This document shows, one piece after another, positions 16,048 to 47,319 of a DNA stretch of 64,000 bases. How positions within the stretch are numbered: the first letter of the stretch is position 1; every line of letters begins with the position of its first letter. Source of the DNA: Siphonodentalium dalli (taxonomy: Eukaryota; Mollusca; Scaphopoda; Gadilida; Siphonodentaliidae). A program made the position numbers and the translations under genes. A model generated the notes under the pieces. The model ran no database searches and was not told the origin of the DNA. It saw only the letters and a program-made list of their open reading frames with translations. The DNA is taken from contig CP136061.1 in NCBI GenBank assembly GCA_032622095.1, positions 5,218,734 through 5,282,733 on the forward strand. Reading direction: 5' to 3'.

Positions 16048-16495
16048 TAATAAATAGAGCATGGCTTGAAGTGAAATACGCCGATATAGTGCATAGTGAG
16101 GTTGTGTAGTTCACGACGCGAAGCGGAGTGAACTACACAACCGCACTATGCACTATATCGGCGTATTTCACGACAAGTCATGCTCTAATTATTATATTGT
16201 ATCGAACAAATGCAGAAATTAAAGGCAAACCACTATTTTCAACTTTTACTAAGTTCAGACAATTGATGTTCGCCTTACTGAAGCTTTAATTTGGATCAGC
16301 GGCGAAATAACAAGTAGTTTCAGAACAAAGTTTGATGTAGTGTTCGTTACTATTTTTAGTTGTCAAAACTACATATGCATAGTGCACGATGGGAGAGACT
16401 TGAAGACGTAGTATACAACTACGACTAATAGAGTCGAGTAGCCAACCAATCGGAAAGCTTGATTTCAATAACAATGTCACTTGAGATACAATATT
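16048..16495. mobile_element. 448-bp insertion in copy A with a 63-bp-arm foldback
   Basis: Absent from copy B, where ATATT runs straight into ATGCATTATGG (28606-28620). In copy A, ATATT occurs on both sides (16043-16047 and 16491-16495), a likely 5-bp target duplication. The left part is a palindrome: arms 16052-16114 and 16128-16190 with few mismatches around a 13-base loop containing GCGAAGC (16118-16124). The right ~300 bp is unique here. No ORF. Confidence 0.75.
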
Positions 16496-16759
16496 ATGCA
16501 TTATGGTCCTCTACGCCTTAGCAGAAAGGCATCCGTCAAATGTCAGGCTTTCAACATTCGAAGCCATATACAGAAGTTTTCCGGGTACGTCAGTGAATTA
16601 GATGAGTATGTGAATTGATGAACCATATATTGAGAAGTGGATGTTTGGGAAGATCACCAGGTGTACATGTTGTTATCCCCATTAGGTCACCAAAGCTGAA
16701 AATACGCAGATAGAGGCCGCCACCGGAAACAACCGGATTAGTGGGACCTTTAACTATTC

Positions 16760-17470
16760 CCCCATAGTAATTCTTAAAATGACTCCTCAAGAGCCATCAG
16801 TCCTATTTAGCTAATATGTACTAACTAATATGGGGTCCTTGTGTTACTTGGAACTCGGATACAGATTTGTTAAAATGAGTTCGACCAATCAAGAAATGGC
16901 ATTTGGTGTATATGGCCTATGGAGAGTTGGGATCAAAAATTGGTTTGAATGGGGATCCACCATTAAAAAAGGGGTTCATGTTAACTTGTAACTTTGCCAC
17001 AGTTCGCAAAGCTTGGGTTATCAGTTGTAAAATTCCAACATGTGCAAAGGAATTGTACGAACTTGAGAGTGTGTTTGCTTCAGTCGAGAGGGAACAGACT
17101 ATGGACTATGTGGGTGTGGGAATCTGGATCATATTTCAAGGTGGACACTCCACTGTTCAACGGAGAGCCTCTAGGCTACGTCCCTCTTTGGGACTATTTG
17201 TTTTTAAGCGAATTTGACAAGTACTAACTCTTATCGTCTTCCGAGTCCCAGTCTTCTCAGTCTTTACATTCTGGTGAGCGTATCCACAGTCATTGACTGT
17301 CTTGTTTAAATATTTGTTCTGTCAACTCGCTCTGAAGCAAAAAATATATCCCTTTAAGTTTCAACAGTACCTATACAACTACATGTATATAGTCAAGCTC
17401 ATTGGAGTAAGCACATTTAAGCTATGAACACTCATGCTGAGTCCGTGCCTATGGTAAACTGTTTCTGCCA
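16760..17470. other. No gene recognised
   Basis: A 104-codon open frame at 16903-17217 has no recognisable domain and lacks splice or conservation support. Confidence 0.45.
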
Positions 17471-17475
17471 TTTAG

Positions 17476-17795
17476 TTTTTTCGCTTACTTCGTTTGTTTT
17501 TTTTCGCTTGCTTCGGTTCCTTCGCGGCGAAGCGAGCGAAATAATATCACAACGAATGAATCGGAGGAAGTGAACAAATCAAACGAAGCAAGCGAAAACA
17601 AAAAACAAACGACGACAGCTTCTATTGTTTTATTTTCGCTTTCGGTTGTTGTTGTAGTTGTTGGGTTTCGGCGGTTCCTTCGCTTGCTTCGGATACTTCG
17701 CGGAGCAAGAGAATGAACCGTCGGAAGCGAAAAAACAACAAATGTCGCACGAATGAACCGAAGGAAGCGAAAAAAACAAACGATGCAAGCGAAAT
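17476..17795. repeat. TTCGCTTGCTTCG-type cryptic simple and palindromic DNA, left of the LINE
   Basis: Variants of TTCGCTTGCTTCG and its complement alternate, giving several local stem-loops; CTTCGCGGCGAAG near 17521-17533 is a perfect palindrome around one base. The same motif family occurs right after the LINE. No coding content. Confidence 0.7.
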
Positions 17796-18175
17796 AACAA
17801 TAGGGCAAGGACTGGTTTGTACTACTCGAGAGCACTAAAGGTTACTGACGAAAAAACCTAGATATTATATCTTCATTGGCAATCCTAACATACATACTAA
17901 TGCAGACGACGTATGTCCCAAGAGACATTGCATTTTTGGTTTTCCTTCGTTTTTACATGATTGAACGTGGCAGCCTAATACCAATCAGTCTGATTGAAAG
18001 GATGCTCACAAAGACATATCATTACATTGACATAGAATCGTCTCTGCATTCCGCAATCAGAATTGGACTGCAGTTAAGAAAGATAACTCGAAATAGGCGT
18101 TTTCGCCATCTCAATGTTCTCAAAAATGTGAAAACATACATTTCAAGAGTGATATAATATTCTATATCCAATATA

Positions 18176-18960
18176 ATGCGAGCTATGATAGAAACACTTA
18201 AATCAATCTTGATGCAAGCATATGCCGTACATTTGAACCCGGGTCCCTCTTTGTCCGATACAAAAACTGATAGAAAATTATCATTGATGTGCCTAAATAT
18301 TCAGAGCATAAAACCCAAACTTGATACATTGTCTGCTGAAATAGTAGACTATGACATCACAGCATTCTCAGAAACATGGCTTTCCAATGATACATCAGAT
18401 TCGGAAATTGCTATTCATGGATTCCATAATCCGGAGAGATTTAATCGCTCATCGCATGGTGGTGGTATCGCAGTATATGTCGCTAATTCATTAAACTCCA
18501 AAAGACACCGAGAATTGGAAACATTCGGTGTAGAATGCGTATGGCTTGAAATTGTAACTCCAACATCGCGCTTTCTGCTTGGAACTTTTTATCGACCACC
18601 GGATTCGCCAGTTCAACTATGGGAGAAAATATATTCTTCGATCGATATGGCAATGGACAATAGCCATTGTTCTCATGTCGTCGTCATTGGGGATTTTAAT
18701 TCAAATGTTCTAGAAACCGAAACAACGCCAATAAGATACATTCGACAGAAAATTGGACTGACACAAATTATCAAAGAACCGACATATTTTACTGAGAGCT
18801 CACTGTCACTTCTCGACTTATGTATGACCAATAAACCACTTCTTGTCGAATCATATGAAATTTTGGACCCTTGTTTTGCTGACCTGGTTCGATATCACTG
18901 CCCAATATTAGTGAAATTAAGTCTAAACGTAGTGAAATCGAATCGCGTCATCAAGCAGCT
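18176..18960 (+). pseudogene. LINE endonuclease domain with degenerate 2A-like motif
   Basis: Residues 16-24 read YAVHLNPGP; the NPGP (18236-18247) is the core of 2A-type sequences found at the start of ORF2 in many CR1-type elements, but the usual acidic D and E before it are lost. Then follow APE-type endonuclease motifs: CLNIQSI, AFSETWL with the catalytic Glu, GGGIAVYV, YRPP, GDFN and DLCMTN. The terminal SDH catalytic motif reads RYH, so the aspartate is missing. The frame is lost near 18940 and continues in another frame at 18973. Confidence 0.78.
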
Positions 18961-18972
18961 GATTTTACTGCA

Positions 18973-19602
18973 ATGAACAATGATCTCCAACAATGGAATT
19001 ATAATTCAGAATTATCTGAGATAGAGTATACACGTATAGCGAGTACGTTAACAGACAACATAAATCACTTAGCCTCAAAATACATACCAAATAAAATAGC
19101 TTCCATACGCCAAGACGAACATAGTTGGATGACTTGCCAAATTCGTAGACTAATTAGACAAAGAAGGCGACTTTATTCAAACGCTAAGCGCAAGAAAACC
19201 GATCATGCCTGGGTCCGATATAAATCCAAAAGAAACGAGGTCACCTCTTGCATAAAGAGTGCCAAGCAGAGACTAACCGATAAAACACAGTCAGCACTGG
19301 GAAATTGTTTCACAGAATCTTCACTTTGGTGGAAAACTATGAATCGACTCATGGGCCCTGACAGAAAAAACATACCGGCATTAAAAAATGGGGATTCAAT
19401 TACAACCAACAATGAATCAAAAGCTGAGATTTTTAATAAATACTTTTGCTCGATTTCTGCCCTCCCGAACGAAGACAGAGTAGAATTACCGCCATTTGAA
19501 TACAAGACTCAATCAAGACTAGATACATTCGTTACCACACGCGAAGAAATATATAAATCACTGAAAAGTGTTCAAACGGCAAAAGCCAGTGGCCCTGACT
19601 GA
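18973..19602 (+). pseudogene. LINE linker between endonuclease and RT
   Basis: Basic linker region (RRLIRQRRRLYSNAKRKK) leading to KASGPD, which is cut by TGA where CR1-type elements normally continue with glycine (GPDGISP). This looks like a single GGA-to-TGA nonsense change; the downstream frame continues at once with ISPRIL. Confidence 0.75.
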
Positions 19603-20643
19603 ATTAGTCCAAGAATATTGAAACTTTGTGCATCCTCCCTAGCTGGTCCACTAGAATTTGCTTTCAAGAAATTTCTTGAAAAATCTTTCTTCCCGCCTGA
19701 ATGGAAATTGGCAAATGTATGTCCCATATACAAAAAAGACGACCCCACCGACCCAAGTAATTATCGCCCAGTTCCTCTTCTCTGTTGCCTGTCCAAAATT
19801 TTCGAAAAGTGTATATACCTTCACATGAATGAATATTTAAGAGATAATATGCTTCTAACAAACCTTCAATCGGGATTCACTCCGCAAGATAGCACAGTAT
19901 TTCAGTTAACAGACGTTTACCATTATATAATATCTTCTCTTGATAATGGCAACGAAATTAGGTGCCTTCTCTGTGATATCAGCAAGGCATTCGATAAGGT
20001 GTGGCATCGGGGCTTACTATTTAAGTTGAAAAGAATGGGAATTGTCGGCCCAACATATGACCTATTACAAAATTATTTGGACAATCGGCACCAGCGAGTA
20101 ATCGTTTCAAACTCGAACTCCTGCTGGAGCTGTGTCTCAGCTGGTGTGCCACAGGGTTCCATACTCGGCCCTCTTCTTTTTTTAATTTACATTAATGATA
20201 TTGTAGACAATGTTACGTGCAATATAAGGCTTTTTGCTGATGATACCTCTTTATTTCTATCCATTGAAGACCCAGTTATTGCCGCAGAGGTAATCAACAA
20301 CGATATTAGTCTGATTTTCGAATGGTCTCAAAAATGGCTAGTGAAATTTAATCCCATGAAAACAGAATCACTTTTAGTATCATGGAAAAATAACATAATC
20401 GTCCACCCTCCCCTTCAGATGTCGGACAAGGATATTGTAGAAGTCGAAACACACAAACATTTAGGTCTTACTTTTAACAGAGACGGTACGTGGAAAGATC
20501 ATGTCACTGATATTGAAAATCGAGCCGCAAGTCGAATGTATATACTGAGGAAATATAAATTCATTCATCCTCGGTATGGGGTAATTGCTCAGTTGAAAAT
20601 TCAACCTCTCTGGAAGATATCCAATACGAGGCTGCTAGATTAG
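19603..20643 (+). pseudogene. LINE reverse transcriptase domain
   Basis: Recognisable RT blocks: NYRPVPLLCCLSKIFEK, GFTPQDST, motif A DISKAFDKVWH, motif B GVPQGSILGPLLFLIYIND and motif C FADD (about 20233-20244). The frame breaks near 20600: LEDIQYEAARLVTGATR and GWDPLSSRR, which belong to the CR1-type thumb, are found in another frame between 20605 and 20720. Confidence 0.85.
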
Positions 20644-21091
20644 TCACGGGAGCAACTAGAAGCTGCAGCAAACAATCACTATTACGGGAAATCGGTTGGG
20701 ACCCACTATCTAGCAGGAGATAAAAAACTAAACTTGTGCAATTTTTTAAAATGATTAGGAGAACCACGCCCCTTACTTATATACTCTAGTTCCTATTGAA
20801 TCTGGAAGTCTAACCAATTATAATTTCAGACAAAAGGGTCTAAGGACTCCCAGAGTTTACGCGACAAGATACGAAAATTCATTTCTTCCAGCTACCGTAA
20901 AATTATGGAACAACCTTCCGCCAAAGGCGAAAGAATGTGAATCTGTCTCTGACTTTAAGAATTTTCTTTTAACCGATCGAATTATCATACCGTCATATTA
21001 TTATATAGCGTACCGAAGACCAAGCCAAATATATTACTGTCGCCTGCGAACAAACTGAAGTAACCTGAAATATGACCTGTTTTGCAATCAT

Positions 21092-21319
21092 TTGAATAAT
21101 AGTCCATTTTGCGACTGTGGAGAATTAGAAACTGCTGAGCACTTCTTACTTCACTGTCCAATATTCGAGCGTGAAAGAATCCGTTATTTAGCCAATCTGA
21201 ATGTGAACTTGAAAGTCAAAATATTACTGTATGGGTCCGTAGATATATCTAATACCAAACATGCCGACATATTCATTGCCGTCCAAAAGTTCATCGACGA
21301 TACCAAACGATTTAACTGA
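21092..21319 (+). pseudogene. LINE C-terminal cysteine/histidine motif
   Basis: CDCGELETAEHFLLHCPIF is the C-terminal C-x-C-x7-H-x4-C motif common in CR1/jockey-type LINEs. It ends with a stop and then the 3' UTR. It is separated from the RT part by stop codons. Confidence 0.75.
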
Positions 21320-21659
21320 CATAATATGGTTATGAACTGTAAAGCGTGAACCAAAAGCCTACATAAAACAAAAATATTGTGCTCTCGTATACTCAAGCAT
21401 GCCAGAGGTGTGATTCTGTGTGAGGGGTAGACTCGCAGCGATTGGCAACGGGATAGGTTGCGGGTGCTTGTGGAACAGGCAATTCATCTTGAGACCCAAT
21501 CAAACCATGATGCAATATATATACTAAGGAAATGGCCACCTATAAGCCTTTGGCTTACTGCCAAATCCTTTTCTCTAATGTTAAATTATTATCGTCCTTA
21601 TATTATGTATTATATGTGCTATTCTTGAGAATAAAATATTGTTTACACTAAATAACAAT

Positions 21660-21805
21660 TGATTTTTTCGCTTGCTTCGTTTGATTTTGTTTCGCTTCCT
21701 TCGGTTCCTTTTTGGCGAAAGAACGGAAATAATTATGATTATTTCGCTCGCTTCCCCGCGAAAGAACCTAAAAATAAAACAAACGAAGGAAGCGAAAGAA
21801 GTATG
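21660..21805. repeat. TTCGCTTCCTTCG-type palindromic DNA, right of the LINE
   Basis: Left part TTTCGCTTCCTTCGGTTCC and right part CGAAGGAAGCGAAAG form inverted arms about 80 bp apart. It is the same sequence family as 17476-17795. Confidence 0.7.
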
Positions 21806-22366
21806 TGGCGGAGACAGGACGCCATAAGTGCCTCCACACATCCGATATATATATAGAACAATAGCTAGTTTACAACGAATGCATTTCACGCACTGACATG
21901 GCTATTGCAGTATTATATTTCCATCTGTGATTTATGAGGGGGTGGAAAATTGACGACCTCAGCACCACTTAAGATTCTGACTTCAGCCTTATTCTGTGAA
22001 AAGGGGGCGGTATTCAAATACACTGTCAGGCTTCAATCACTAACGGACAGATTGTGTTTCACCATCCGAACACAAAGGACGCAGCTGCTAAATACTAATA
22101 TTATGTGACAGTGTCCTATTCAAACTCCTCGACGACTTTCATATTTGGGTTATTCGTATTCAGACTTTCTCAACCTTACTTTGTGGATGCGACACTTGGG
22201 TCCACCAGAGAAGATTTTGTGTTTTTTTAACCATTAGTGTTTAATTGTACACATACATTTGTATAGTGAAGTTGCTCCGAGCACGGTTCGATCAAGAGAA
22301 GAAGAAGATACCGAGACGTGATAATCATATATCGCTGTTGTGTATAGAGGTTACATATTTCTATGT

Positions 22367-22613
22367 ATGGCTGCCCGGTTAGGACTCATCTTTATATTCG
22401 TCATTGCCACCAACATTTTCGGGGATATTATAGAACGTCACTACTATCGCGACCCCAACAAAATTCAAGAAAGTGGATCACTCGTGCAGAGGAGATCGAA
22501 AATCGAATGCGCGGTGGCGTGCTCTCAGGATTCTAGCTGCAAAACGCATTCCTTCAAGAACGGAACGTGTTGGTTGTCAGACAGTGAACAGAACGAGTAT
22601 TCAGAGAATAAAC
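22367..22613 (+). CDS. Exon 1 of a secreted PAN/apple-C-type lectin gene
   Basis: First coding exon of a probable secreted lectin. The chosen ATG begins MAARLGLIF; an upstream GTG in frame and an ATG four bases upstream in another frame are less suitable. Residues 1-19 form a hydrophobic signal peptide (LGLIFIFVIAT core). Residues 20-82 hold one PAN/apple-like module with Cys48, 52, 58 and 68 (spacing C-x3-C-x5-C-x9-C) and the motif KTHSFKNGTCWL, typical of PAN domains, which bind protein or carbohydrate outside the cell. The exon stops at AAAC|GTGAGT, a strong splice donor, in phase 1. The next phase-compatible exon I can find is the lectin exon at 37938. The exon at 63637 is a clear paralog with the same phase and cysteine spacing. 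The domain call rests on cysteine pattern, not on a search; linkage across the 15 kb intron is inferred. Confidence 0.65.
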
Positions 22614-22670
22614 GTGAGTTTAATTTCTCCCTTTAAATCGTGACCGTAATGAAGCACAATGCCATTTTAA

Positions 22671-23097
22671 CCCTTTACCCAACAGAACGGCCCTGTGCCA
22701 ATGCATTCTCTTATATATTCGAGTCGACCATAGGTCGCCTCGCATATATAAGAGAATGCATTGGCTTATCACATATTAAAAATGATAAAATTGTCTAAGA
22801 ATGTAGAAAAATATTATAAGAAATGTAAGAAAAAATTATAAAATTGTTAAAGAATGTAAGATAAAATGGTAAAAAGTGTTAAAAAAGAATTTGTTTAGGC
22901 CAATGCATTCTCTTATATATGCGAGGCGACCTATGGTCGACTCGCATATATAAGAGAATGCATTGGCACAGGGCATAACTGTAACAATCACAATGTGGTC
23001 AATGAACCGGTTCCAATGATATCCATATTTGTATGGTGTTATTGAGACAGACCGAAGATATTTTAGGCTGTTTTTGGCCGCTTTGTTGGGTAAAGGG
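22671..23097. mobile_element. piggyBac-like MITE with nested palindromes
   Basis: A 427-bp non-coding element bounded by TTAA on both sides (22667-22670 and 23098-23101). Terminal inverted repeats start CCCTTTACCCAACA and run ~24 bp to CGGCC. TTAA target sites and CCCTTT ends are hallmarks of piggyBac-superfamily elements. Inside, two ~69-bp hairpins (22697-22765 and 22899-22967) are inverted copies of each other around an AT-rich core. It lies 58 bp after the donor of PAN-lectin exon 1. Confidence 0.82.
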
Positions 23098-23172
23098 TTA
23101 AAGATGTATTATGCAGGATTCATTGCAGACATGCACTTGCAACAACAACAACATACATAGATGATTTCTAAT

Positions 23173-23260
23173 GACTCGCAATTCTATACGTAATTTATTA
23201 ACCGCGCGAGTGGACTAACTTCAATTCGAGCTGAGCTTTTGCGTGGCTCGAATCGAATTG
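23173..23260. repeat. Truncated foldback copy
   Basis: CGCAATTCTATACG and TTATTAACCGCGCGAGT match the left arm of the foldback at 46713. The palindrome centre (AATTCGAGC ... GCTCGAATCGAATT) is present, but the right arm is cut off by a (GAT)n tract at 23260-23278. Confidence 0.55.
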
Positions 23261-23689
23261 ATGATGATGATGATGATTGTTTATTTGTATAATATTTACA
23301 AGCTTATGACAATGGTGATAATAAACCACAGGGGCATGTAACGCGCTCCGCTGTCCACCCCCCTTTTGCACTGCCCATATACGCCGCCCTATATACGCGC
23401 CTTCTTCGCGTTAATGGAACATTATATAGACAAGGGGCTCTGTAGAAATTCAACGTTTCACCATCGCTCGGGAGTCGCACAAATGTGAAGCTATATTATG
23501 CGAAGTAAACATATACAATGATGTAATTTCTTCAACTCAAGTAACTATCAAAAGCCTCCGATTGATAAGGTATGTGTATAATGTATAAATGTGTACCGGT
23601 ATAGGAATATTCCGTGTTTGTCTCATCTTGCAATGTATTGTATTGTTGGGGCGATGGGTGCAATACCGTCACCAAACAAATGCGACAGA

Positions 23690-24745
23690 AGATGATACAA
23701 TCCGAAAACATTCATATGCATTATGTGTCTCGTCAACTCTTGAGAGTTTGTCCTGGATTATTGTTCAAAATGGAATTGAATTATCATCCATGTAGAGGAG
23801 CAAAACAAGTTTATATTTCACGATTTTCGGTCTACTTTCATCAGAAAACTCCGAAATGTTGCCATCTGTAAATTATACCATGACGTTATCATAATGTATA
23901 TCTCGAAGTGGGTACACTTCGATATAATAGCACAAAATAATCGGAGTCTTGCTTTTGTATTCTGCCATACCGAAATTTCTAAAATTGATTTTGTTTCTTC
24001 TGAATTTTGGGGTGGGGGTGACACAATCTACCACCACATAACATCTATGGCAAAGAATGACATCATTATCCTACAATCATATGCAGTATATATTTCCACA
24101 AGTTGCTATATTATATACGGGATCTCCATTCAATGCAATACTGAATAATCGCCTGTTAAGAGGGGCGAAACAACTGAAAATGAATGATTGTTTTGTCTAT
24201 TTTCCACGTAAATTTTTACATCTAACACCGCAATCATGGCATTGCATTACTTTGTATTTATAAGTGTGTAACCTGCTATATCGTAGCACAAACATATCCC
24301 GAATACCTGTTCTTCTGTGTTCATTTGTGCCGAATTTCCCTAAAACAGTGACTTTTTGCTGAATTTTGGGGTGAGGGTTGAAATAATCTTATATAACACA
24401 TGACGTGTTAAATATGATGACATATTCAGCATACTGTCGTATGCGGTATATGTATACGCACTTTTCAAGACTATATACGATATCCCCGGTCAAAACAATA
24501 TTGATCTATCGCCCATTAAGTGAGGCAAAAAAATTGAAAAATTGCGCTGTTTTGTCTATTTTTACAATAAATCTAAAACAAATCTTCGTTATATCAGAGA
24601 GATCGTACCACTATCATAGTAAATATCTAGAGGTATGTAGACTACAATATTATTTTAGCGCAAAATGTTCGCGTTTCTATACTTTTATTTCTCATTTTGC
24701 CGAATTTTACAAAAACAGGGATTTTTGCTGAATTTTGGCACTTAA
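23690..24745. repeat. ~365-bp degenerate tandem repeat, about 3 units
   Basis: CTGAATTTTGG recurs near 24000, 24359 and 24729 (spacings ~359 and ~370). TTTTGTCTATTTT and a CGCCYRTTAAG-like box recur in matching positions. It lies inside intron 1 of the PAN-lectin gene; no coding content. Confidence 0.65.
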
Positions 24746-25148
24746 TCAGCTAAAAATCATCTTTTGCATCATTTGTATATTTCACACCGGGTCCTATCCG
24801 ATGCGGAATGTCATAACCTTCAAAATGATGTATCACAAGCCCGTGTGTGGTGCCGATGGACTAAACTTTCTGAAATCGGTTCCGTCCGCTTCACTATTCC
24901 ACCAATAATGAAGTATTTATTGATTTGCAACTGCGTATACGTCAGACGTTATAATATGATACATGGACATCATAAAGACATTAGTTCGCATAAATAAAAG
25001 ATGACAATTGGGTTTCACATATTGAGATGCATCAATCAATCTAGTGGGTTGGACTAAGATCTCGAGGATACCTGGCTATCATATCTCCATGACGATACAG
25101 ATGTTTTAAAGAAATGTCCAGGTGCTCCTCTGTTCATGGTGCTATATA

Positions 25149-25367
25149 ATGGCTAAATATTCTCAGTTTCAACGAAATGTTGCTGCGCGGGCATATCAGC
25201 CACATTTGCCAGACACAGAGCGAGATTTTGAGTTGTTTATGTCAGTCGATGAGTCTGTTCTAAACCCCTTGTCAGATGTCAATATTGGGAGGATCATGAA
25301 AAGTCATGTGCTACTAACTGCATTTTATTGTATATCAGAAGAAACTATATATGACTACACACTGTGA
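25149..25367 (+). pseudogene. 72-codon ORF shared by both duplicate copies; unknown
   Basis: Starts MAKYSQFQRN and ends ETIYDYTL before TGA. In copy A (12948-13166) the fourth codon is TAG, and the other differences I see change the amino acid (N/S, M/L, Y/C), so there is no sign of purifying selection since duplication. I recognise no domain. It may be an exon relic that was already dead or non-coding before the duplication. Confidence 0.3.
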
Positions 25368-26216
25368 CCACTATTTTTGAACGGGTCTTCCATATAACCT
25401 GACAAATTGTAACTTTTTTTGTGGAAACTGTATTGAATGGAACAGTCTCAATTTTGTTATAATATATATGCAATTATCTGACGGTTCGAGGTCTCTCAGT
25501 TTGCACGAATATATGTATCTCTTCAATAGAATGATAAATATACGTTTAATGCTTCTTCTATGTATCTCTTTTTGCTAGCTCATTGTGTGAATGTCCTGAT
25601 TGCCATCCCCATATAACTATGACAATTAAGAAGATATAATTGTTCAAGTGACTGGGTTACCATTTGTCGGGATTGTGAAATGTGAACGCCCAAATCTCCT
25701 TAAAATGATATGGAGATGGCCTGGTTGACTATATATAACTTATATGTGGATATCGGCGAATAGCAATCTTATCTATGATAGTGCATATCCGCTCGCCATC
25801 CGTGACGCAAACGACACCAAATGTGATTTAATTCATGGTATATCATTAGATAAAAACATGTATGAATTTGTTGGAAATTAGTGCCAAATATATTTGTATC
25901 AGCTTTTGCCTCTTCGATTGTACCGCGTGAAGTTATATATATAACACACAGACAGACCGAAAGACAGACAGCACAATTTGATTTCTTGTATCATTTGAGA
26001 AGAACGTGTCTGAATTTGATGGTAATTGGTACTAAAAATATTTTGTATCAGATTTTGGTGACCCTCCCGTCCCTATTTCGGACTCAAGCTGCACACACTA
26101 AGACTCATTAGAGATTAGAGATGCATATATATGAAATTGGTGAAAATTGGCGAGTATACAAATTCGTATCAAATTGAAGGTCCCCATATCTCTCACCCAT
26201 AGGGCACCAATTTGTT

Positions 26217-27215
26217 GTGTCTAAACCACACGATAATATTCCTCGTATTACGGAGAAGAATATGTATCAATCTGGTGGAAATTGGCACTAAACATATAGC
26301 TATAATGTCCCTCTCATCTCTATACACCACTGACTCGGATGGCCCCACTTGTGACATCCTTAAACCACACAATTACACTCCTGATATCATGTAGATGATT
26401 GTTTATAAGTTTGGTGATAATCGGCGACTAAACAATGATTTTGATAATCAAATTTAGTGCCAATCCCTCCCTCCCGATCTCTCACCTAAACAGCACCACT
26501 ATGGCGTCTTTAAATCACACGATCAGATTCCTCGTATCATGGATAAGAACGTGTATCAATTTGGTGGAAATTGGCGCCAAAAAAATTGTGCATCAATTTT
26601 GGTGCCCCTGTCCCTTTCAATACACCCCTGACTCGAATGAGGCCACACTTGAAAGAAATAAGCCACACCATTTGACTCATCATACCATGGGGATGCTTTT
26701 GTATAAGTGTGATGGCAATCGGCGACTAAACCAATTATTATCAAATTTAGTGCACACCCCTCCCAATCTCTCATCCAAACGACAACAATTTGGGGTTGTT
26801 AAATCGCACAATTAGATTCCTTGTATCATGAAGAAGAATATATATCAATTTGGTGGAAATCGGCGCTAAAATAAGTTTTATCAATTTTGGTGCCCCTCTC
26901 CCCTTTCGTGCAAATCTGACTCGAACGACGCCACTTTTGATATATTTAAACGACACCGTTGGATTCTTCATATCATGGGGATGATTATATGTATGTTTCG
27001 TGGCAATCGGCGACAGAAAAAAATTCTGACCCTCCCCCTTCCGGGCACCCATGACGCGAACGGCGCGACTTTTGCCATATTTAAAACACACCATTAGATT
27101 CCTCATATTATGGGGATGATAATATATAAGTTTCATGGCAATCGCCGACAAATTTTGTTTCTGCCCCTCCCCCTTTTCTGCCCCCGACAACAACGGCGTC
27201 ACTTTAGAAAAATTT
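26217..27215. repeat. ~147-bp degenerate tandem array (copy B)
   Basis: Same units as 13740-14660, with one additional partial unit (27090-27169) that is missing from copy A. Confidence 0.75.
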
Positions 27216-28889
27216 AACACCGACCATTATCTTTCTCGTAAAATGTTACTCCTAGTAGACCCCTTTGGCATCATCTAGATGGTCCCCTGTGAATTTACAT
27301 AGAACACAGACAGACAGACAGACAGACATTCGCAAATATAGATATAAGAAGATAATGAAATATTGGTTAAATTTGACACAGGCAAACACAAATTCCGCTG
27401 TTCAGGGCAGCGTGGTGAACTGAATTGCACCCGGAACGATTAGTCCAGGAGATATTGATCGACCTCTGCACGCCCCCCCCCCGGGACTCAACTTCACGCC
27501 ACTAATTTTCTTTCTTAATGTCTTCTCTAATTTGTTTCTGTTGAAAACAGTGGCCGCAGAGACTCCAGACAAGATGACATCAATCATGACGGCCATTTTG
27601 TATATGCACCAGCCACCAGGTCTCTTTGATCACCATTATATCAAAGATGATATCACATGTGGTCTTGTTTCCGCTCGATTCGTTATGCATTACAAATTAG
27701 CCAGAAATCCGACACCAGAATCCAATATGGCGGTCAAAATGGCCACCGGAATGTGAAAATATGCTATTTTTCTGACATTGCACCACATTTCGTTTGTCTC
27801 TGTGGGGAATAGTGGCATCTTGGCGTAAATTTATACATTTGTCGTATAGAAGAGTCATTGGCGAACACAAGGGGACCATAATATATATTCATTGTGAGAT
27901 ATTATTGTCCGATATCAGGTTTTCCCAAATACCGGTATAACAGGTTAAAGCCGAACCGACGCTAATAACGCGATGTAATGTTTCGAATCAATGAATATCA
28001 TTGCCATCATAACAACACCTATGCATATATGTGCAGGAGATACTCGAGCTAGGATTCGTCTTATACCTGAGTTGAGGAATATTCGCCCAAATCCAAGATG
28101 GCGGCCAATAAGCCACCGAAATAGAAAAATCGCCGAAAATCGCTGATTTTAACATCAGTGAACGTTATTGTCACGACAACTCCATATCTGCTTACTATTG
28201 TGAGTTGGGAACACTTAGGCGAAGAACTGTCCTTGTACCATATCTAAATAAAGGTCTCCCAAATCCAAAATGACGCCCACAATGGTGGACAGATTTTGAA
28301 GAATTACCGAAATTCCCTCATATTCACATCGTTGAGCATTATTGTCGAGACAATTCCACCGATTCTTACAGTTGAGTTGGAAATACTGAGGCGAAGTAAT
28401 TACCTTACATCGCATACAAGACATTGTTTTCCAAATAGAAGACGGCGGCAAAAATGGCGACCAAAATTTGAAAACATGCCTACATTCATTTACTTTCTTA
28501 CGATGGGCGTTATTGTTTTGCGATTTCTACCCACCATTACATGTTGATATGGAATATTAATATGAACTATGTATTCATTTGAGGTTGGCAATTGATACTG
28601 TGGGTATATTATGCATTATGGTCCTCTACGCCTTAGCAGAAAGGCATCCGTCAAATGTCAGGCTTTCAACATTCGAAGCCATATACAGAAGTTTTCCGGG
28701 TACGTCAGTGAATTAGATGAGTATGTGAATTGATGAATCATATATTGAGAAGTGGATGTTTGGGAAGATCATCAGGTGTACATGTTGTTATCCCCATTAG
28801 GTCACCAAAGCTGAAAATACGCAGATAGAGGCCGCCACCGCCATATACATTGTTTGAAACAACCGGATTAGTGGGACCTTTCTACAAAG

Positions 28890-29355
28890 AAGTTTAGAAA
28901 ACTGTGTTGGTGTGAGAGAGATAGATTAATCTGACGAAGAGACGGAAACTGGTCCAGATAATGATGAATGTGGCAAATCAGAATGAACTCAGGTACTGTT
29001 GTTTTGATTCTTGGAAGTCAAACTATGACTATTCGGCGCACCTATATACGGTTACTGCCATTATCGGTGCTTAGTGGATGATAGATTTTGAAATGCCACA
29101 TCACGATTATTAATTGTGGGTTTCCATTCTTCCAGAAGGCTACGACTTATGAGATGGCTTATATTATGTACCGTTTTTGTCCATCGAAATAATGACAAAA
29201 AGTTGAAATTAGTATGTGATAATATCGACTTCTTTTTCATTTCTGGCCACCAGTTTGGTCGCCATCTTGACTGTGAGAATTTGCCAAACTCATTTGAGTA
29301 CTTCATATACATTTTCCATATGAACATGTAATTGTGGGCACAAGGCCCATCGTAA
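28890..29355. other. No gene recognised (intron 1 of the lectin gene)
   Basis: Lies between duplication copy B and the inverted third copy; no structure found. Confidence 0.45.
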
Positions 29356-29359
29356 GAAA

Positions 29360-29720
29360 GTAAAGGAATGTGAGCTTGTTTTCAAATTTCGGCCGCCATT
29401 TTGCCATCTTTGTCGCCATATTGGATTCTGGTATCGGATTTTTGGCAAGGGTTGTATATTAGCATAATATAACGAATCGAGCAGAAAACAAGACCGCATG
29501 TGATATCATTTTCACTATAACGGCGATCAAAGAGACCTGGTGCATATAAAAAATGGAGGTCATGATGGACGCCATCTTGTCTGAAGTCTAATATAACTTT
29601 TCTAAAGGAATTCTGGTTAACCGAAAAAATTAGAGGAGACATTAAGAAAGAAAATTAGTGGGATGAAGTTGAGTCCTGGTGGAGCAGAGGTCGACCAATA
29701 TCTCCTGGACTAGATGCCTC
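29360..29720 (-). repeat. Diverged inverted third copy of part of the duplicated block
   Basis: The reverse complement matches ~14876-15190 and ~27430-27745: shared GTCCAGGAGATATTG, CATGACCTCCATTTT versus CATGACGGCCATTTT, and CCAGAATCCAATATGGCG. It is clearly older than the A/B pair. Confidence 0.75.
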
Positions 29721-30599: not shown

Positions 30600-31125
30600 G
30601 AACGCATTGGCCTAACAAATGTCATACTATTTGTTATAATTGTTAACATTTATAAGGACAAAATTATAACAAATTGGTAAAGAGTGTAAGAAAAAATTAT
30701 AAAGATGATAAATTTGTTAATGAATATAAGAAATAATGATAAAAGTTGTTGAAGAATATAAGAAAAAACGATAACATTGTTACAAAATGTAAGAAAAAAA
30801 GTAGAAAACAATTAAAATTGTTAAAGAATGTAAGAAAAAATGATAAAAACAATGATAAACATTGTTAAAGTGTGTAGGAAAAAAATATGAGATAAAGTTG
30901 ATAAAGAATGTAAGAACAAAATGATAAAAAATGATAAAGTTGATAAAGAATGTAAGGAAATTCTAAAAATGTTAAAGAATATAAGAAAACATGATAAAAA
31001 TTGTTAAAGAATATAAGAACAAAATATAAAATTTGTTAAAGAATGTAAGAAAATTGATAAAAAATGATAAGAAAAATTGTTAGGCCAAAGCATTCTCTTA
31101 TATATGCGATGCGACCTCCGCTTCT
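30600..31125. repeat. AT-rich ~30-bp minisatellite flanked by GCATTGGCC hairpin sequence
   Basis: Many units of TTAAAGAATGTAAGAAAAAA plus TGATAAAA fill 30655-31080. The left edge has AACGCATTGGCCTAAC (30602-30617) and the right edge GTTAGGCCAAAGCATTCTC followed by TTATATATGCGA (31080-31110). The same hairpin and the same AT-rich unit form the core of the piggyBac-like MITE at 22671-23097, but no CCCTTTACCC ends are present here. Confidence 0.75.
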
Positions 31126-31129
31126 GGTC

Positions 31130-35135: not shown

Positions 35136-35138
35136 ATA

Positions 35139-38825: not shown

Positions 38826-38831
38826 AATAAA
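38826..38831 (+). promoter_or_regulatory. Poly(A) signal AATAAA of the PAN-lectin gene
   Basis: A canonical AATAAA lies 45 bases after the stop codon of the lectin exon, a short but normal 3' UTR distance. Confidence 0.55.
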
Positions 38832-38839
38832 ACATTTGC

Positions 38840-40200
38840 AGGAGGGAATACCGGGGTGGGTTGGTGCTCGTGAAGGAACATTGCAATTGTTTTACTAATG
38901 ACCTGGTGTGCTTATATTTGACATTTGAAACAGTTTAAAACATATAATAACTGTAAACACACCATCTTATGTTACTCGGACTGTTACTTAGTGGAGATGA
39001 TATTAACTATGGCATTTTGCATTAACGGTTAGGTGAAATACTTCCTTCCTGACACATTTCGGAAAGAAGCTGAGAATTGTAAAACTTAACTAAATAAACT
39101 TGATCTGATGTAACTAAGACCTATGGCTATGAATGGCTAGACAATAACGGTCAGCGCATCAAGCTAATCAGTGAATTATCTGCATGTCTATCAGATGCTA
39201 TCTTTATCGCATAACACCTAAAGTATCAAATTTTGGCATAGCGTCTACTTGTCATTTAATACCTTAGTAGTTGCCCCAGTAGACTAACATGGTATGGAAT
39301 AATTCAGACTATTGAGGAAATAGTTAGAAATTATGGGATTGTGGGTATCCTGCACAATGACCTAGGTTTGATGATATCACCAATTTATCAAAATAATATT
39401 TCCAATTGCAGCCTGTTAAATATCATCTCTATGAATTTATTTTTAAAATATGTCAACTCTAGTTGAATTGGACCTTAACAGCTGATGTGTCATGGATATG
39501 TCTACAACATGTTAACAGTGACTTGAAAGTCAAGATTGAGTTCACTGTCCTGAGATGTTATCAGCTTAAAATGTATTACCGCAAAATAGCTAAAACACAT
39601 GTCAGATTCATGTAATAGCTTGCCGGTGAAAATGGCATATCACTGGATATGTAGAGCATATGTATAATTTGTTTTTTGTAAAATCTGTAGCATTTACCTT
39701 ATACTAGTATTTCATGTGCACATATCAGCTTCCGACGGGTTACTGTATTTGTCCACTACATCGATGCATTAGAATTTCAATTTAGCAGCAGGGAATTGAC
39801 CAACCAGGTAGACCCAGCATAGTATCACCACACACTGACATGGAAACTCCAATGCATGTATGTGGTAGACAAATGCATATTTGCCAGTTTTAACCATTTT
39901 TTTTCTCTCAAATAAAACAGCTTCTGAAACAGGTTAAACTGCCATTTGAAATAAAGGCGAGATAATTTCCCAGTCATACGGGTGATATAAGAAGGTTGTT
40001 TAGACCATAATTTATTAGTTTTATACCATAACTAGTTAAATTCGGTTTGATGAGTCCCCGAAAATGCCAGATGCAAACAAAACTGCATACCTTCGTGCAT
40101 AAGTTTTACTTTACTGGCTAAAAGCTCTGTATTTGTTATAGATTTATTATATGCAAGCTTTGAAACACAACTGTTTTGATAATTACTAATTACACTAACA
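38840..40200. other. No gene recognised downstream of the lectin gene
   Basis: No ORF above background and no repeat structure noted. Confidence 0.45.
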
Positions 40201-40206
40201 CAGCTC

Positions 40207-40820
40207 ATTATAACGGCCAGGAGCCTGTAGGTTGTGTATTTTATACATGATTGTAATAATGTGTGATATACACAAGCGATCAGATGTCGGTGGCCTATGC
40301 ATTTTACACATATTATATGCGATATACAAACAAGCGGTCAGATGTCGGTAGTATTTGTATTGTATACATTGTTGTATACGAAATATATACAAGCAGTCAG
40401 ATGTCGGTAGCCTGTGTATTTTACACATGTTATATGCGATATACAAACAAGCAGTCAGATGTCGCTAGCCTGTGTATTTTACACATGTTATATGCGATAT
40501 ACAAACAAGCAGTCAGATGTCGCTAGACTGTGTATTTTACACATGGTTATATTCGAGATATATACAAAAGCGGTCAGATGTCGCTAGCCTGTGTATTTTA
40601 CACATGGTTATATTTGAGATATATACAAAAGCGGTCAGATGTCGCTAGCCTGTGTATTTTACACATGTTATATGCGATATACAAACAAGCAGTCAGATGT
40701 CGCTAGCCTCTGTATTTTACACATGGTTATATTTGAGATATATACAAAAGCTGACAGATGTCGATAGCTTGTGTATTTTACACATAGTTATATGCGATAT
40801 ATATACAAAAGCTGAAACAA
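40207..40820. repeat. ~60-bp minisatellite, ~10 units
   Basis: CAGATGTCG recurs at about 40281, 40338, 40398, 40457, 40515, 40577, 40637, 40694 and 40756 (57-62 bp apart). Each unit includes TGTGTATTTTACACATG, itself an imperfect palindrome, and a TATGCGATATACAAACAAGC stretch. Confidence 0.9.
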
Positions 40821-41357
40821 AAATACTTTTAATATAGTATATCAACAAGTAATCCATTTGTGTTAAGATGTCGCGTTGTTGGACGACCGGTCATCCGTAT
40901 AGTTTCGACAACACAATTATTACCTCGACGAACAAAACAAAAAATAGTGAATATGGAAATCCATTAGATAACACGTAGTCCATCATGAAGTCGAAAGTCC
41001 AGTCTGTTGCGCGAACAATTTGATTGTGGCTTCAGAATGTTTTTATCGAAATGTATATACGTTCGACCAGACATACCATATGCGTGATATAAATTAGCTT
41101 ATATAACGAATCGTGATCATATAACCATGTTTATATCATGTGAATTATATGGCTCAACACTTGGTACACACTTATTTCAAGCGTATTCGTTGTGAAAAGT
41201 TACATTCTAGTATAAATATTGGCCACAACTAGCCACAACTAATCGTGGAGTTCGCAATGAACAAATCCGCACCAGCCGACCGCTGTACGCAGCATTCCAC
41301 GTCCATGTGAATGTTTCACCATTGTCGGGTACAATGTAATCAGACAACAATAGTACA

Positions 41358-41382
41358 GTATATATATATATATATATATATC
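41358..41382. repeat. (TA)n microsatellite
   Basis: About 12 TA units, 186 bp before the large minisatellite. Confidence 0.85.
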
Positions 41383-41567
41383 ATATGACTTGCGACTGTT
41401 TTTGGACCTCGCGTATTACAAAATTTCAGGTATTATTACATGTAATTAGTACTTAATAGCACCTCCAATAAATGTGATTGGTCAAGTTTTCAAATTGTTA
41501 TTGCGTTTAGTTGTTACATAAAGCTTTAGGTTAAATTCATGCCAGTGTAAATAGAAATATTTCCAAA

Positions 41568-44500
41568 TAGACCCACAAACAATACACCCACAAACAATAC
41601 AACCACGAAAACAATACACCCACAAACAATACAACCACGAAAACAATACAACCACGAAAACAATACAACCACGAAAACAATACAACCACGAAAACAATAC
41701 AACCACGAAAACAATACAACCACAAACAATACACACACAAACAATACACCCACAAACAATACAACCACGAAAACAATACAACCACAAACAATACAACCAC
41801 AAACAATACACCCACAAACAATACAACCACGAAAACAATACACCCACAAACAATACAACCACGAAAACAATATACCCACAAACAATACAACCACAAACAA
41901 TACAACCACAAACAATACACCCACAAACAATACACACACAAACAATACACCCAAAAACAATACAACCACGAAAACAATACACCCACATACAATACAACCA
42001 CGAAAACAATACAACCACAAACCATACACCCACAAACAATACAACCACAAAAACAATACACCCACAAACAATACAACCACAAACAATACAACCACGAACA
42101 ATACAACCACGAAAACAATACAACCACAAACAATACACCCACAAACAATACAACCACGAAAACAATACACCCACAAACAATACAACCACAAACAATACAC
42201 CCACAAACAATACAACCACAAACAATACACCCACAAACAATACAACCACGAAAACAATACAACCACGAAAACCATACACCCACAAACAATACAACCACGA
42301 AAATAATACACCCACAAACAATACACCCACAAACAATACAACCAGAAACAATACACCCACACACAATACAACCACAAACAATACAACCACGAAAACAATA
42401 CAACCACAAACAATACACCCACAAACAATACAACCACAAACAATACACCCACAAACAATACAACCACAAACAATACACCCGCAAACAATACAACCACAAA
42501 CAATACACCCACAAACAATACAACCACAAACAATACACGGTCAAACAATACAACCACAAACAATACACCCACAAACAATACACCCACAAACAATACAACC
42601 ACAAACAAAACACCCACAAACAATACAACCACAAACAATACAACCATGAAAACAATACACCCACAAACAATACACCCACAAACAATACAACCACAAACAA
42701 TACACCACGAAAACAATACAACCACAAACAGTACAACCACAAACAATACAACCACAAACAATACAACCACAAACAATACAACCACAAACAATACACCCAC
42801 AAACAATACACCCACAAACAATACAACCACGAAAACAATACAACCACGAAAACAATACAACCACGAAAACAATACACCCACAAACAATACAACCACGAAA
42901 ACAATACAACCGCAAACAATACACCCACAAACAATACAACCACAAACAATACACCCACAAACAATACAACCACGAAAACAATACAACCACAAACAATACA
43001 CCCACAAACAATACAACCACAAACAATACAACCACAAACAATACAACCACAAACAATACAACCACAAACAATACAACACAAACAATACACCCACAAACAA
43101 TACAACCACGAACAATACACCCACAAACAATACAACCACAAACAATACAACCACAAACAATACAACCATAAACAATACAACCACAAACAATACAACAACA
43201 AACAATACAACCACAAACAATACAACCACAAACAATACAACCACGAAAACAATACAACCACGAACAATACAACCACAAACAATACAACCACAAACAATAC
43301 AACCACAAACAATACAACCACAAACAATACAACAACAAACAATACAACGACGAACAATACAACCACAAACAATACAACCACAAACAATACACCCACAAAC
43401 AATACAACACAAACAATACAACCACAAACAATACAACCACGAACAATACAACCACAAACAATACAACCACGAACAATACAACCACAAACAATACAACCAC
43501 GAACAATACAACCACGAACAATACAACCACAAACAATACAACCACAACACAAACAATACAACCACAAACAATACAACCACAAACAATACAACCACGAACA
43601 ATACAACCACAAACAATACAACCACGAACAATACAACCACGAACAATACAACCACAAACAATACAACCACAAACAATACAACACAAACAATACACACACA
43701 AACAATACAACCACGAACAATACAACCACAAACAATACAACCACAAACAATACAACCACAAACAATACAACCACAAACAATACAACCACAAACAATACAA
43801 CACAAACAATACACCCACAAACAATACAACCACGAACAAAACAACCACAAACAATACAACCACAAACAACACAACAACAAACAATACAACCACAAACAAT
43901 ACAACAACAAACAATACAACCACAAACAATACAACCACAAACAATACAACAACAAACAATACAACCACGAACAATACAACCACAAACAATACAACCACAA
44001 ACAATACACCCACAAACAATACAACCACAAACAATACAACCACAAACAATACAACCACGAAAACAATACAACCACAAACAATACAACCAAAAACAATACA
44101 ACCACAAACAATACAACAACAAACAATACACCCACAAACAATACAACCACAAACAATACAACCACGAAAACAATACAACCACGAAAACAATACAACAACG
44201 AAAACAATACACCCACAAACGATACAACCACGAAAACAATACAACCGCAAACAATACACCCACAAACAATACAACCACAAACAATACAACCACAAACAAT
44301 ACACCCACAAACAATACAACCACAAACAATACAACCACAAACAATACAACCACAAACAATACAACCACAAACAATACAACACAAACAATACACCCACAAA
44401 CAATACAACCACGAACAATACAACCACAAACAATACAACCACAAACCATACAACCACAAACAATACAACCACAAACAATACAACCACGAAAACAATACAA

Positions 44501-45069
44501 CCACAAACAATACAACCACAAACAATACAACCACAAACAACACAACAACAAACAATACACCCACAAACAATACAACCACAAACAATACACCCACAAACAA
44601 TACAACCACAAACAATACACCCACAAACAATACAACCACAAACAATACACCCACACACAATACAACCACAAACAATACAACCACAAACAATACAACCGCA
44701 AACAATACAACCACAAACAATACACCCACAAACAATACACCCACAAACAATACAACCACAAACAATACAACCACAAACAATACAACCACGAAAACAATAC
44801 AACCACGAAAACAATACAACCACAAACAATACAACCACAAACAATACACCCACAAACAGCACAACCACGAACAATACACCCACAAACAATACACCCACAA
44901 ACAATACAACCACGAAAACAATACAACCACAAACAATACAACCACGAAAACAATACAACCACAAACAATACACCCATTAACAATACAACCACGAAAACAA
45001 TACAACCACGAAAACAATACAACCACAAACAATACAACCACGAAAACAATACAACCACGAAAACAATCT
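41568..45069. repeat. 3.5-kb 15/17-bp minisatellite, nearly G-free on the plus strand
   Basis: Around 230 units. The main 15-mers are ACAATACAACCACAA and ACAATACACCCACAA; a 17-mer has CGAAA in place of CAA, and a shortened form lacks CC (ACAATACAACACAA). The plus strand has almost no G. No variant contains a stop in three minus frames or one plus frame, so repeat-made ORFs up to ~1300 codons appear (LFVVVLFVGV-type on minus, TTNNTTTNNT-type on plus). I do not regard these as genes. Confidence 0.95.
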
Positions 45070-45102
45070 CCCTCCATACACTGTTCTCAACGTTCGTAAT
45101 GT

Positions 45103-45462
45103 GGTAAACTAACAATAATACTAACAATAATACTAACAATAATACTAATAATAATACTAACAATAATACTAACAATAATACTAACAATAATACTAACAAT
45201 AATACTAACAATAATACTAACAATAATACTAACAGTAATACTAACAATAATACTAACAATAATACTAACAATAATACTAACAATAATACTAACGATAATA
45301 CTAATAATAATACTAACAATAATACTAACAATAATTCTAACAATAATACTAATAATAATACTAATAATAATACTAACAATAATACTAATAATAATACTAA
45401 CAATAATACTAATAATAATACTAACAATAATACTAATAATAATACTAACAATAATACTAACG
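45103..45462. repeat. 12-bp minisatellite, ~30 units
   Basis: TAACAATAATAC repeated with a few C/T changes (TAATAATAATAC). It lies 34 bp after the end of the 15/17-bp array and has the same strand bias (almost no G on plus). Confidence 0.95.
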
Positions 45463-46002
45463 ATATGTGAGAAACAATCAGAATAATTTAATCGCTTACC
45501 TAGATTTTGAATAATTGTAATTTGTTCATTGGAAACTATCAAACGAGGCGGACAATGTTAAATGATCCACGTTTAAACGCCGAACAATGCAAGTTCACAG
45601 TCCGATTCCAAGTGAAATAAATTTATATGGTGCTACATCTAGTATCGAATTAAACATCTTTGCTTTATTTCAATATTGATCCTGATAATATTTCCTTCCA
45701 TGTTGAAATTCACCAAAAAACAAGTATTTATTCTTCAATACAGGTTATCTAAACAATAATGGGGTATATAAATTCCCAATAAACTGTATTGAGAAACAGA
45801 AATTAGACTCAATTCGTAGAACTATGGTTTTGTTCGGATGCATATATTCGCTTCATAGAGTCGAGAGGTGTCTCATGTATGCGCTTCGTTGAACTTTAAT
45901 TATATCAGTCTAACAAATGTATGCAGTGTCATTGTAGTAAGTCACACGCAAATCAACCCTAGTCGAGTCATATGATAAATAGAATATGAACTTTCTGTTC
46001 CC

Positions 46003-46108
46003 CTCTCATATGAAAGTTATGAAACTCGTCTAGAATTTTCCGTTTTTTGTCTCGGCAAAGACTCGACAAAACGCAACATTCTAAAACTAGTTTCATATGC
46101 GATGAGAG
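46003..46108. repeat. Foldback element, AAACTCGTCT family
   Basis: Imperfect arms CTCTCATATGAAA...GAAACTCGTCTAGAATTTTCC and the complement ending GATGAGAG, around TCTCGGCAAAGA. Related to 51538-51654 and to a partial copy at 46571-46660. Confidence 0.6.
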
Positions 46109-46257
46109 AAACACTCATTCCATATCCTCTATTTAAAAAATTAAACCATAGGTTTGTTTCTTACAATATACACACTTTAAGTATAGTTTACAATAATTTG
46201 ATACATTTCCATTGATTTCTATGTCGTACATTTTATATGCATAATATTTGGAAAGTT

Positions 46258-46500
46258 AATATTCATTATACTTAGTACTGACTGTGTAATGTTGTACCAG
46301 TGAAATTCTTATTTTACAAATCTATATTATCAAGTAAATATCATGTTTATATAAATAACTACATTTGTGTGAATTATCTTAAATATATCTCATTCATCAT
46401 GCATTTTGACATTTTGCTTAATGCCGGTTCAAGTTTACATACATTTTAGGGATATAATATTCATCATAACTGTAATATGTGCACGGTGGCTTATTTATGG
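46258..46500. repeat. ~240-bp direct duplicate, copy 1
   Basis: Shares TTGTACCAGTGAAATTC, TATATTATCAAGTAAAT and TTTTGCTTAATGCCG with 47915-48170. The two copies bracket three foldbacks. Confidence 0.75.
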
Positions 46501-46570
46501 GAGAGTTAATCTTTGTTCGCACATCTACTTTTGATGTGAAAAAAAAGCTCCCCGAGTGCCATCTAAGTAA

Positions 46571-46660
46571 TAGTTCGTGTTCCTATCATGAAATTTATGA
46601 AAGGCTCGGCAAAACGGACAATTCGAGACGAGTCTTAAAATGTTTCCGGTTTTTGTTTGG
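46571..46660. repeat. Partial foldback, AAACTCGTCT family
   Basis: GTTCGTGTTCC, TGAAATTTATGAAA and AATTCGAGACGAGTC match the foldback at 51538-51654; the right arm is missing. Confidence 0.5.
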
Positions 46661-46712
46661 TGTTTTCTATGTCATACATTTTCATGCAAACTTTAAATAG
46701 GTGATCTGTAAT

Positions 46713-46836
46713 GAGTCGCAATTATCTACGAAATGTATTAACCGAGTGCATTAAACTCAATCCGATCGGAGTGTCAGCGAGGCTCCAATCGAATTTAGTG
46801 GACGAGGTTAAGAAATTTCGTATAAAATTGCGACGA
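46713..46836. repeat. Foldback element with GCGAGGC centre
   Basis: Left arm GAGTCGCAATTATCTACG... and right arm ...CGTATAAAATTGCGAC pair over ~55 bp. The centre (46772-46782) contains GCGAGG followed by C, one base different from GCGAAGC. Truncated relative at 23173. Confidence 0.7.
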
Positions 46837-47180
46837 ATTTGAGATCCGTTTTCTCGCATGGAAAAACGATCTCGAAATGGCTGGAGCTAAACATAATTTA
46901 TTTTGATTATTGTATCATAAAGACACCTCCAAACACATATAGTTCAATTTTAAAAGTGACTTGAGTTTGATAATATTGTTCAACCACCCTTATCACGAAT
47001 GTTTATCTCACACTCAACACTAAATTACACAAAATAAATTGAATATCATAATTATATGCTAATTAACATAATAAAGTTCCGGCATTGACATCGGCATGTT
47101 TATAGGAATATAATAAACATAATAATCACTTGATTGGACTGGTGACGTGAAGTAATTCATTGTAGGCAGGAACTTTTGAA

Positions 47181-47319
47181 ATAAAAACACTGCGCGTCGG
47201 CGTGTATAGTATAATTTGACCACAAAGAAACTGATTGTTGGACGACGCGAAGCGGGGTCCTACAATTAGTTTCGGCTGTCAAATTCTACTATACACGCCG
47301 ATTCACAGTGTTTTTTATT
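47181..47319. repeat. Foldback element with GCGAAGC centre
   Basis: Arms of ~60 bp (ATAAAAACACTGCGCGTCGG... and ...CGCCGATTCACAGTGTTTT) around GACGCGAAGCGG (47244-47255). The central 17 bp match the centre of the foldback at 16052-16190 except one base, while the arms are unrelated. Confidence 0.8.

Follow-up and report, generated by a model that had tools for sequence, protein, structure and literature searches.

How can two palindromes close on almost the same turn when their arms are not reliably alike, and what kind of DNA would such palindromes be? The question is raised by P1 and P2, two short palindromes in a 64-kb stretch of the scaphopod mollusc Siphonodentalium dalli (GenBank assembly GCA_032622095.1, contig CP136061.1, positions 5,218,734 to 5,282,733), hereafter the window, which has a GC content of 38% and reads as eukaryotic in character and as animal-like by its repeats. 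An earlier note on this DNA had described foldback elements in which a conserved turn, the heptamer GCGAAGC, is combined with variable arms. All statements made here are based on the 64-kb window and on scans of prokaryotic and viral collections (IMG/VR and GTDB). The two palindromes and their cores are located as follows.

16048..16194, no strand assigned: palindrome P1, with arms of 65 nt on each side of the core and 60 of 65 arm positions paired
16113..16129, + strand: 17-bp core of P1, ACGACGCGAAGCGGAGT, in which GCGAAGC (16118-16124) is centred on the axis
47179..47320, no strand assigned: palindrome P2, with arms of 63 and 62 nt and identity in 52 of 64 aligned arm columns
47242..47258, + strand: 17-bp core of P2, ACGACGCGAAGCGGGGT, in which GCGAAGC (47247-47253) lies 0.5 nt off the axis

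P1, recovered by an ungapped scan as an ungapped palindrome, is 147 bp long, and P2 is 142 bp long. The core ACGACGCGAAGCGGRGT lies on the axis of both, with 16 of its 17 bases in agreement and one base different, and the distance between the centre of the heptamer and the axis is 0 in P1 and 0.5 nt in P2. The folding energy as single-stranded DNA is -70.9 kcal/mol for the P1 region (z -18.8) and -45.5 kcal/mol for that of P2 (z -10.2), values that 0 of 200 shuffles equal in either case. Both folds consist of a GAA triloop closed by the stem CGC/GCG and followed by two mispairs (GA against GA and GA against GG), whose positions coincide in the two palindromes; beyond the mispairs, the outermost pairs of the core are exactly two, AC/GT. 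In P1, 15 unbroken pairs lie directly outside the mispairs, the AC/GT of the core counted in. The scan, the folds and the 16/17 match thus bear out the earlier description of two palindromes with a common 17-bp centre and GCGAAGC at the turn, at essentially the places it had given.

The sharing of this core goes beyond chance. Under a model that keeps pairs paired and uses the base composition of the window, an identity of at least 16/17 is expected with a probability of 6.6e-7 per comparison, or 2.8e-5 once corrected for 2 orientations and the 21 pairs formed by 7 palindromes. When a 15-base part of the 17-mer is used as a pattern, the sole other match within 3 mismatches in the window carries 3 of them.

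The arms give a different picture. For the four cross pairs between P1 and P2, the local alignment score of the arms is attained by 180 to 430 of 1000 shuffles; when the inner arms are aligned globally, the corresponding figure is 64 to 389 of 1000. If global alignments are summed with both ends anchored, p is about 0.037, and if they are anchored at the core with the outer ends free, p is 0.16-0.19; the former value does not constitute evidence of a relationship between the arms, because the wrong-strand control scores higher, as it does in all four settings of the alignment. The arms therefore appear not to be detectably related, with no reliable similarity between them, and only the tip could be demonstrated to be common to P1 and P2. 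The possibility, named in the earlier note, that both loci are one family with diverged arms is neither demonstrated nor refuted by these alignments. In being short, non-coding and inverted-repeat over their whole length, P1 and P2 resemble miniature inverted-repeat transposable elements (MITEs); a terminal sequence common to both was not found, their outer ends, A/T-rich in either case, being not clearly alike. Since neither ends nor arms are reliably alike, the two are not established as one MITE family.

Evidence on how P1 came to its present place is provided by a duplicated unit of about 4 kb, one copy of which contains the palindrome.

12696..16751, + strand: copy A of the ~4-kb duplicated unit, containing P1 and a 297-bp element
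24897..28881, + strand: copy B of the ~4-kb unit, without P1 and without the 297-bp element
16196..16492, no strand assigned: the 297-bp MITE-like element adjoining P1, with 8-bp terminal inverted repeats ATTGTATC/GATACAAT
28602..28614, + strand: the empty site GGGTATATTATGC in copy B, with a single ATTAT at 28608-28612

Compared in 200-bp blocks, of which 17 lie within the unit, the two copies are 94-99% identical (mean 97.2%). Opposite the empty site, the alignment contains 448 additional bases from copy A (443 bp and a repeated ATATT), and this extra DNA is made up of two parts, P1 and then the 297-bp element. The latter is flanked by a 5-bp ATTAT target duplication (16191-16195 and 16493-16497), a motif that is single in copy B. 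Because neither arm of P1 is present at the empty site, P1 most likely arrived as an insertion that brought both of its arms, and not through an inversion of local DNA; neither arm would thus have been copied from the present flank of P1. A local inverted duplication at the P1 site was likewise rejected, as copy B has neither arm and self-BLAST of the window matched P1 to nothing else. The simplest history would involve two insertions, one of the 297-bp element at ATTAT and one of P1 at the left edge of that element. It is possible to regard P1 and its neighbour as a single 443-bp element with an ATATT duplication, but nesting is preferred because the 297-bp neighbour has its own 8-bp terminal inverted repeats and its own ATTAT duplication. 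We infer a gain in copy A as opposed to a loss from copy B, which would need to end exactly at the outer duplication of the 297-bp element. There is also a hint that P1 was already imperfect on arrival, as a copy of an older palindrome, since its arm differences (5/65) exceed the divergence between copies A and B (2.8%, averaged over the same 17 blocks and leaving out a first block at 30.5% that extends outside the unit; p 0.036). A description as mobile foldback DNA is consequently supported for P1, which is absent from the duplicate site, and P2 may be mobile as well; of the empty sites and target duplications that the note had asked for, the empty site of P1 in copy B was found.

Copies A and B lie 12.2-12.6 kb apart and contain internal tandem repeats of ~290 bp and 135 bp, with differences in copy number. 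A diverged, inverted piece of the same unit is located at 29281-29712.

Taken together, the explanation we favour, at somewhat less than even chances, is that P1 and P2 represent mobile DNA of a MITE-like or foldback-like kind, short, palindromic and non-coding, built round an older 17-bp core, with arms copied or matched round the tip. The core seems to predate the present pairing of the arms, because the mispairs agree in P1 and P2 while the arms differ. As a single strand the core alone would fold into the GAA loop, the CGC/GCG stem, the two mispairs and AC/GT. One arm could then be copied from the other round the hairpin turn, either by fold-back priming from the 3′ end of the core itself or by template switching in replication, so that the arms would be made, or kept matching. 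The expected outcome is a pair of arms that match within a locus and differ between loci, and mispairs next to the turn that are spared, the tip being presumably too tight for recopying and its old mispairs being retained. Two forms of this process may be envisaged, one in which arms are newly captured by self-priming of the core and another in which the arms of an old family have corrected each other past recognition; the copying step itself is conjectural in both. Arm capture would be allowed by known biochemistry, since hairpin 3′ extension and self-priming from two terminal pairs have both been described. Foldback inversions in yeast are explained, in passages of PMC7467729, by single-stranded DNA hairpins whose 3′ end is extended, and passages of PMC11292364 describe self-priming by DNA polymerase theta (Pol theta) that starts at two terminal base pairs.

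Several observations weigh against this explanation. The arms of P2 are not clean beside the core, as an unpaired position lies 4 pairs past its mispairs. The arm lengths are nearly equal (65 versus 63/62), which a plain family fits better than the independent capture of arms. According to passages of PMC11292364, the inverted insertions ascribed to Pol theta are short in mammalian cells (3 to 30 bp), and in Drosophila they start best with a 6-nt loop, unlike the 65-nt arms on a 3-nt loop found here. Copies of a core-bearing palindrome amount to only two. The target duplication of P1 is 3-4 bp at best, by eye, and P2 has no clear one at its flanks. A precise loss from copy B retains some small probability, and the test of arm divergence loses its signal (p 0.26) when the overall A/B divergence of 196/3732 is used (5.3%, a figure that includes flanks outside the unit).

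The same heptamer pattern had also been proposed for other palindromes of the window, with GCGAGGC at the centre of P3, GCGTGGC in P4, and GCGNRGC as the general form.

46703..46846, no strand assigned: P3, a different palindromic element outside the P1/P2 pattern, with GCGAGGC 5.5 nt off the axis
23154..23270, no strand assigned: P4, a truncated relative of P3 that runs into a GAT microsatellite, with 87 of 118 aligned columns identical

This extension did not hold. In P3 the folded loop is AGC, to the left of the off-axis heptamer, and in P4 the heptamer straddles a 9-nt loop and its stem. Identity between P3 and P4 is 76/100 columns outside the turn and 11/18 within it, so that the arms are what relates the two, with a turn that is no better conserved; a conserved turn with variable arms hence describes P1 and P2, whose arms are not reliably alike between loci, and fails for P3 and P4. 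P5 (11293-11412) has arms of 44 bp (95%), separated by a spacer of 32 nt in which GCGNRGC is absent, and P6a and P6b (22697-22765 and 22899-22967) have other turns, with the heptamer 9 nt off the axis. GCGNRGC does occur 21 times in the window versus 10.5 expected (0 of 100 shuffles as high), an excess that is in part due to repeats: a 122-bp tandem repeat, together with its inverted copy, accounts for 4 of these occurrences and P6 for 2. The observation made in the earlier note is thus good for two of its four original examples, with an insertion most likely behind one of them.

P6a and P6b fall within an element at 22690-22974 that has terminal inverted repeats of 79 bp, both of them palindromes in their own right with arms of 33 bp, and encloses an A/T-rich tandem array of ~31-bp units, a type of array seen again at about 30640-31117. 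P3 and P2 are enclosed by direct repeats (46245-46497 and 47901-48150, 82%) about 1.66 kb apart, which might represent a terminal-repeat element or a dispersed satellite.

Outside the window, the 17-mer was found in 12 stretches of IMG/VR (13 sites) and in 79 stretches of GTDB genomes (82 sites). The best anchored arm score among these 95 sites is 5.5, versus 48 for P1 and 28.5 for P2. Longer patterns that include the inner arms of P1 or P2 gave 0 matches in IMG/VR, and for a 17-mer from the P1 arm the match was to one IMG/VR contig, in which no palindrome was visible by eye. Small hairpins with other arms are tipped by the 17-mer in Bacteroidales metagenome-assembled genomes (L071, L072, L086) and in a Clostridiales one (L039, L070), which has 8 sites within 1 mismatch; the 12 genomes searched have 1 to 8 sites each at up to 1 mismatch. 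These are similar to bacterial REP-like hairpins, small hairpins of which a few carry the same 17-mer at the tip, but their arms are of a few bp and nothing links them to the window. In a first count, which took in the two sites of the window, 20 of 97 sites had an anchored score of at least 3, versus 3.6% of 1940 random positions. When flanks were permuted among the 95 sites, 8 had at least 3 contiguous flanking pairs, with 1.5 expected and 1 of 2000 permutations as high. Dereplication dropped 18 near-identical sites, the representative kept being the first met and not the best paired, and left 77, among which 5 have at least 3 contiguous flanking pairs (1.2 expected, 19/2000 permutations as high), 2 have 5 of the first 6 positions paired (0.28 expected, 65/2000) and 1 has 4 contiguous pairs, as by chance (546/2000). 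As the signal shrank on dereplication, bacterial hairpin tips were discarded as strong support and are treated as weak evidence that the sequence of the 17-mer is suited to hairpin tips generally. The prokaryotic and viral sites are not taken as homologous to the palindromes of the window.

In the Clostridiales genome, spaced repeats like TCAAAAACGGMGCGAAGCGGAGTTTTTG are present in L109 (about 1906-2280), and also in L096 and L112. They have an AAGGAGG or similar stretch some 20 nt on, and look like a repeated small hairpin of their own.

A less probable reading is that of an ordinary palindromic MITE family, in which P1 and P2 would be old subfamilies with diverged arms, their outer ends read by an unseen transposase and their centre kept by sampling chance or mild constraint. 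It agrees with the near-equal arm lengths, the A/T-rich outer ends, the p of about 0.037 for alignments anchored at both ends, the fact that P1 is most simply an insertion, and the relationship of P3 and P4 through their arms, as expected of such a family within the same window. The similarity of the P1 and P2 arms is not reliable, however, given the higher wrong-strand control in all four settings, and the centre is 16/17 identical, whereas the outer ends, on which an end-reading transposase depends, are not clearly alike; moreover, arms that match only within a locus would still require arm-to-arm correction or compensating change. The role in transposition or replication that the earlier note had suggested for the turn appears improbable. 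HUH transposases read REP or IS200/IS605 hairpins, which are mispaired, so a hairpin-reading enzyme might recognise the GCGAAGC tip with its mispairs, and this would fit a tip that is the sole demonstrated common part and the 5 of 77 dereplicated sites with at least 3 contiguous flanking pairs (1.2 expected). Nevertheless, a scan of 9 translated stretches, out of 46 listed stop-to-stop frames, gave no HUH-type protein, the best of the 95 other sites scores 5.5 versus 48 and 28.5, and 4 contiguous pairs occur at the chance level (1/77). No enzyme, end structure or further copy in the window or the collections scanned ties the turn to either process.

Convergence, in which long palindromes are pressed toward a very stable tip so that unrelated ones end on GCGAAGC, would draw on the extraordinary stability reported for that hairpin turn (work cited in passages of PMC11292364). 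It is rendered quite unlikely by an agreement that covers 16/17 bases and both mispair places, beyond the heptamer, and by the other tight palindromes examined (P3, P5, P6a and P6b), which end on other turns. A sequencing or assembly artefact, either a hairpin adapter or a fold-back chimera, is very improbable. A hairpin adapter would indeed leave a constant hairpin with differing arms, but the arms differ at 5/65 positions in P1 and 12/64 columns in P2, the cores differ by one base, and P1, beside the 297-bp element, reads as a nested insertion.

How does core-first palindromic DNA compare with known systems? Copies of a MITE family have their ends and arms in common, whereas P1 and P2 share a centre and have ends that are not clearly alike. 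Helitrons carry a 3′ hairpin with CTRR close after it; by eye, no CTRR lies within 10 nt outside the core of P1 or P2 on either strand. The palindromic MITE Made1 of humans, in passages of PMC1784062, is like P1 and P2 short, non-coding and inverted-repeat throughout, and a further likeness to palindromic MITEs is the presence of P1 at one of two duplicate loci. The inverted repeats of the Drosophila foldback transposons Tetris and Galileo (passages of PMC4079207 and PMC3573991) fold back as those of P1 and P2 do, but Galileo has long, internally repetitive ends, whereas P1 and P2 measure 147 and 142 bp and turn on a loop of 3 nt; none of the 43 tandem arrays reported in the window (minimum score 50) lies inside P1 or P2, in contrast to foldback elements such as FB and Galileo. 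The closest parallel for a tip that acts as a seed comes from foldback inversions and Pol theta extension (passages of PMC7467729 and PMC11292364), where a 3′ hairpin is extended to an inverted copy; there, the DNA beside a break is copied, while P1 seems to have arrived carrying both of its arms. No tip-defined family of this sort was found in the open-access literature searched, including through GCGAAGC, ACGACGCGAAGCGG and CGCGAAGCG (RepBase-like libraries and most subscription papers being outside that scope). ACGACGCGAAGCGG has no occurrence there, CGCGAAGCG with inverted repeat led only to a myxobacterial host paper, and passages of PMC13155455, in which the hairpins of 118,019 genomes were surveyed, contain nothing on the tip sequence.

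With regard to the rest of the window, matches to RVT_1 (reverse transcriptase) were obtained in two stretches (E 2.2e-16 and 5.2e-30; 9 translated stretches scanned), and one of them used as bait gave 10 candidate stretches, in none of which a relative was confirmed. Rfam gave 0 matches at gathering score in the window, and no tRNA was found in it. A 3.9-kb array at 41573-45465 is formed by 15-bp and 12-bp tandem units (CCACAAACAATACAA and ACTAACAATAAT), and the openness of several frames over long stretches of it is ascribed to repetition.

P1 and P2 are best classed as a possible variant of palindromic MITE or foldback DNA whose unusual trait is a conserved centre. The bolder idea, that they belong to a class of mobile palindromes set by the tip and not by the ends, in which an inherited, ultra-stable 17-bp tip repeatedly builds arms by self-primed copying, appears rather unlikely at present. 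Transposon families are normally recognised by their conserved ends, and a family of palindromes with only the turn in common would, if real, escape end-based searches. If true, a turn-conserved family of this type would also offer a testable case for how palindromes gain matching arms, and keep them, in animal genomes.

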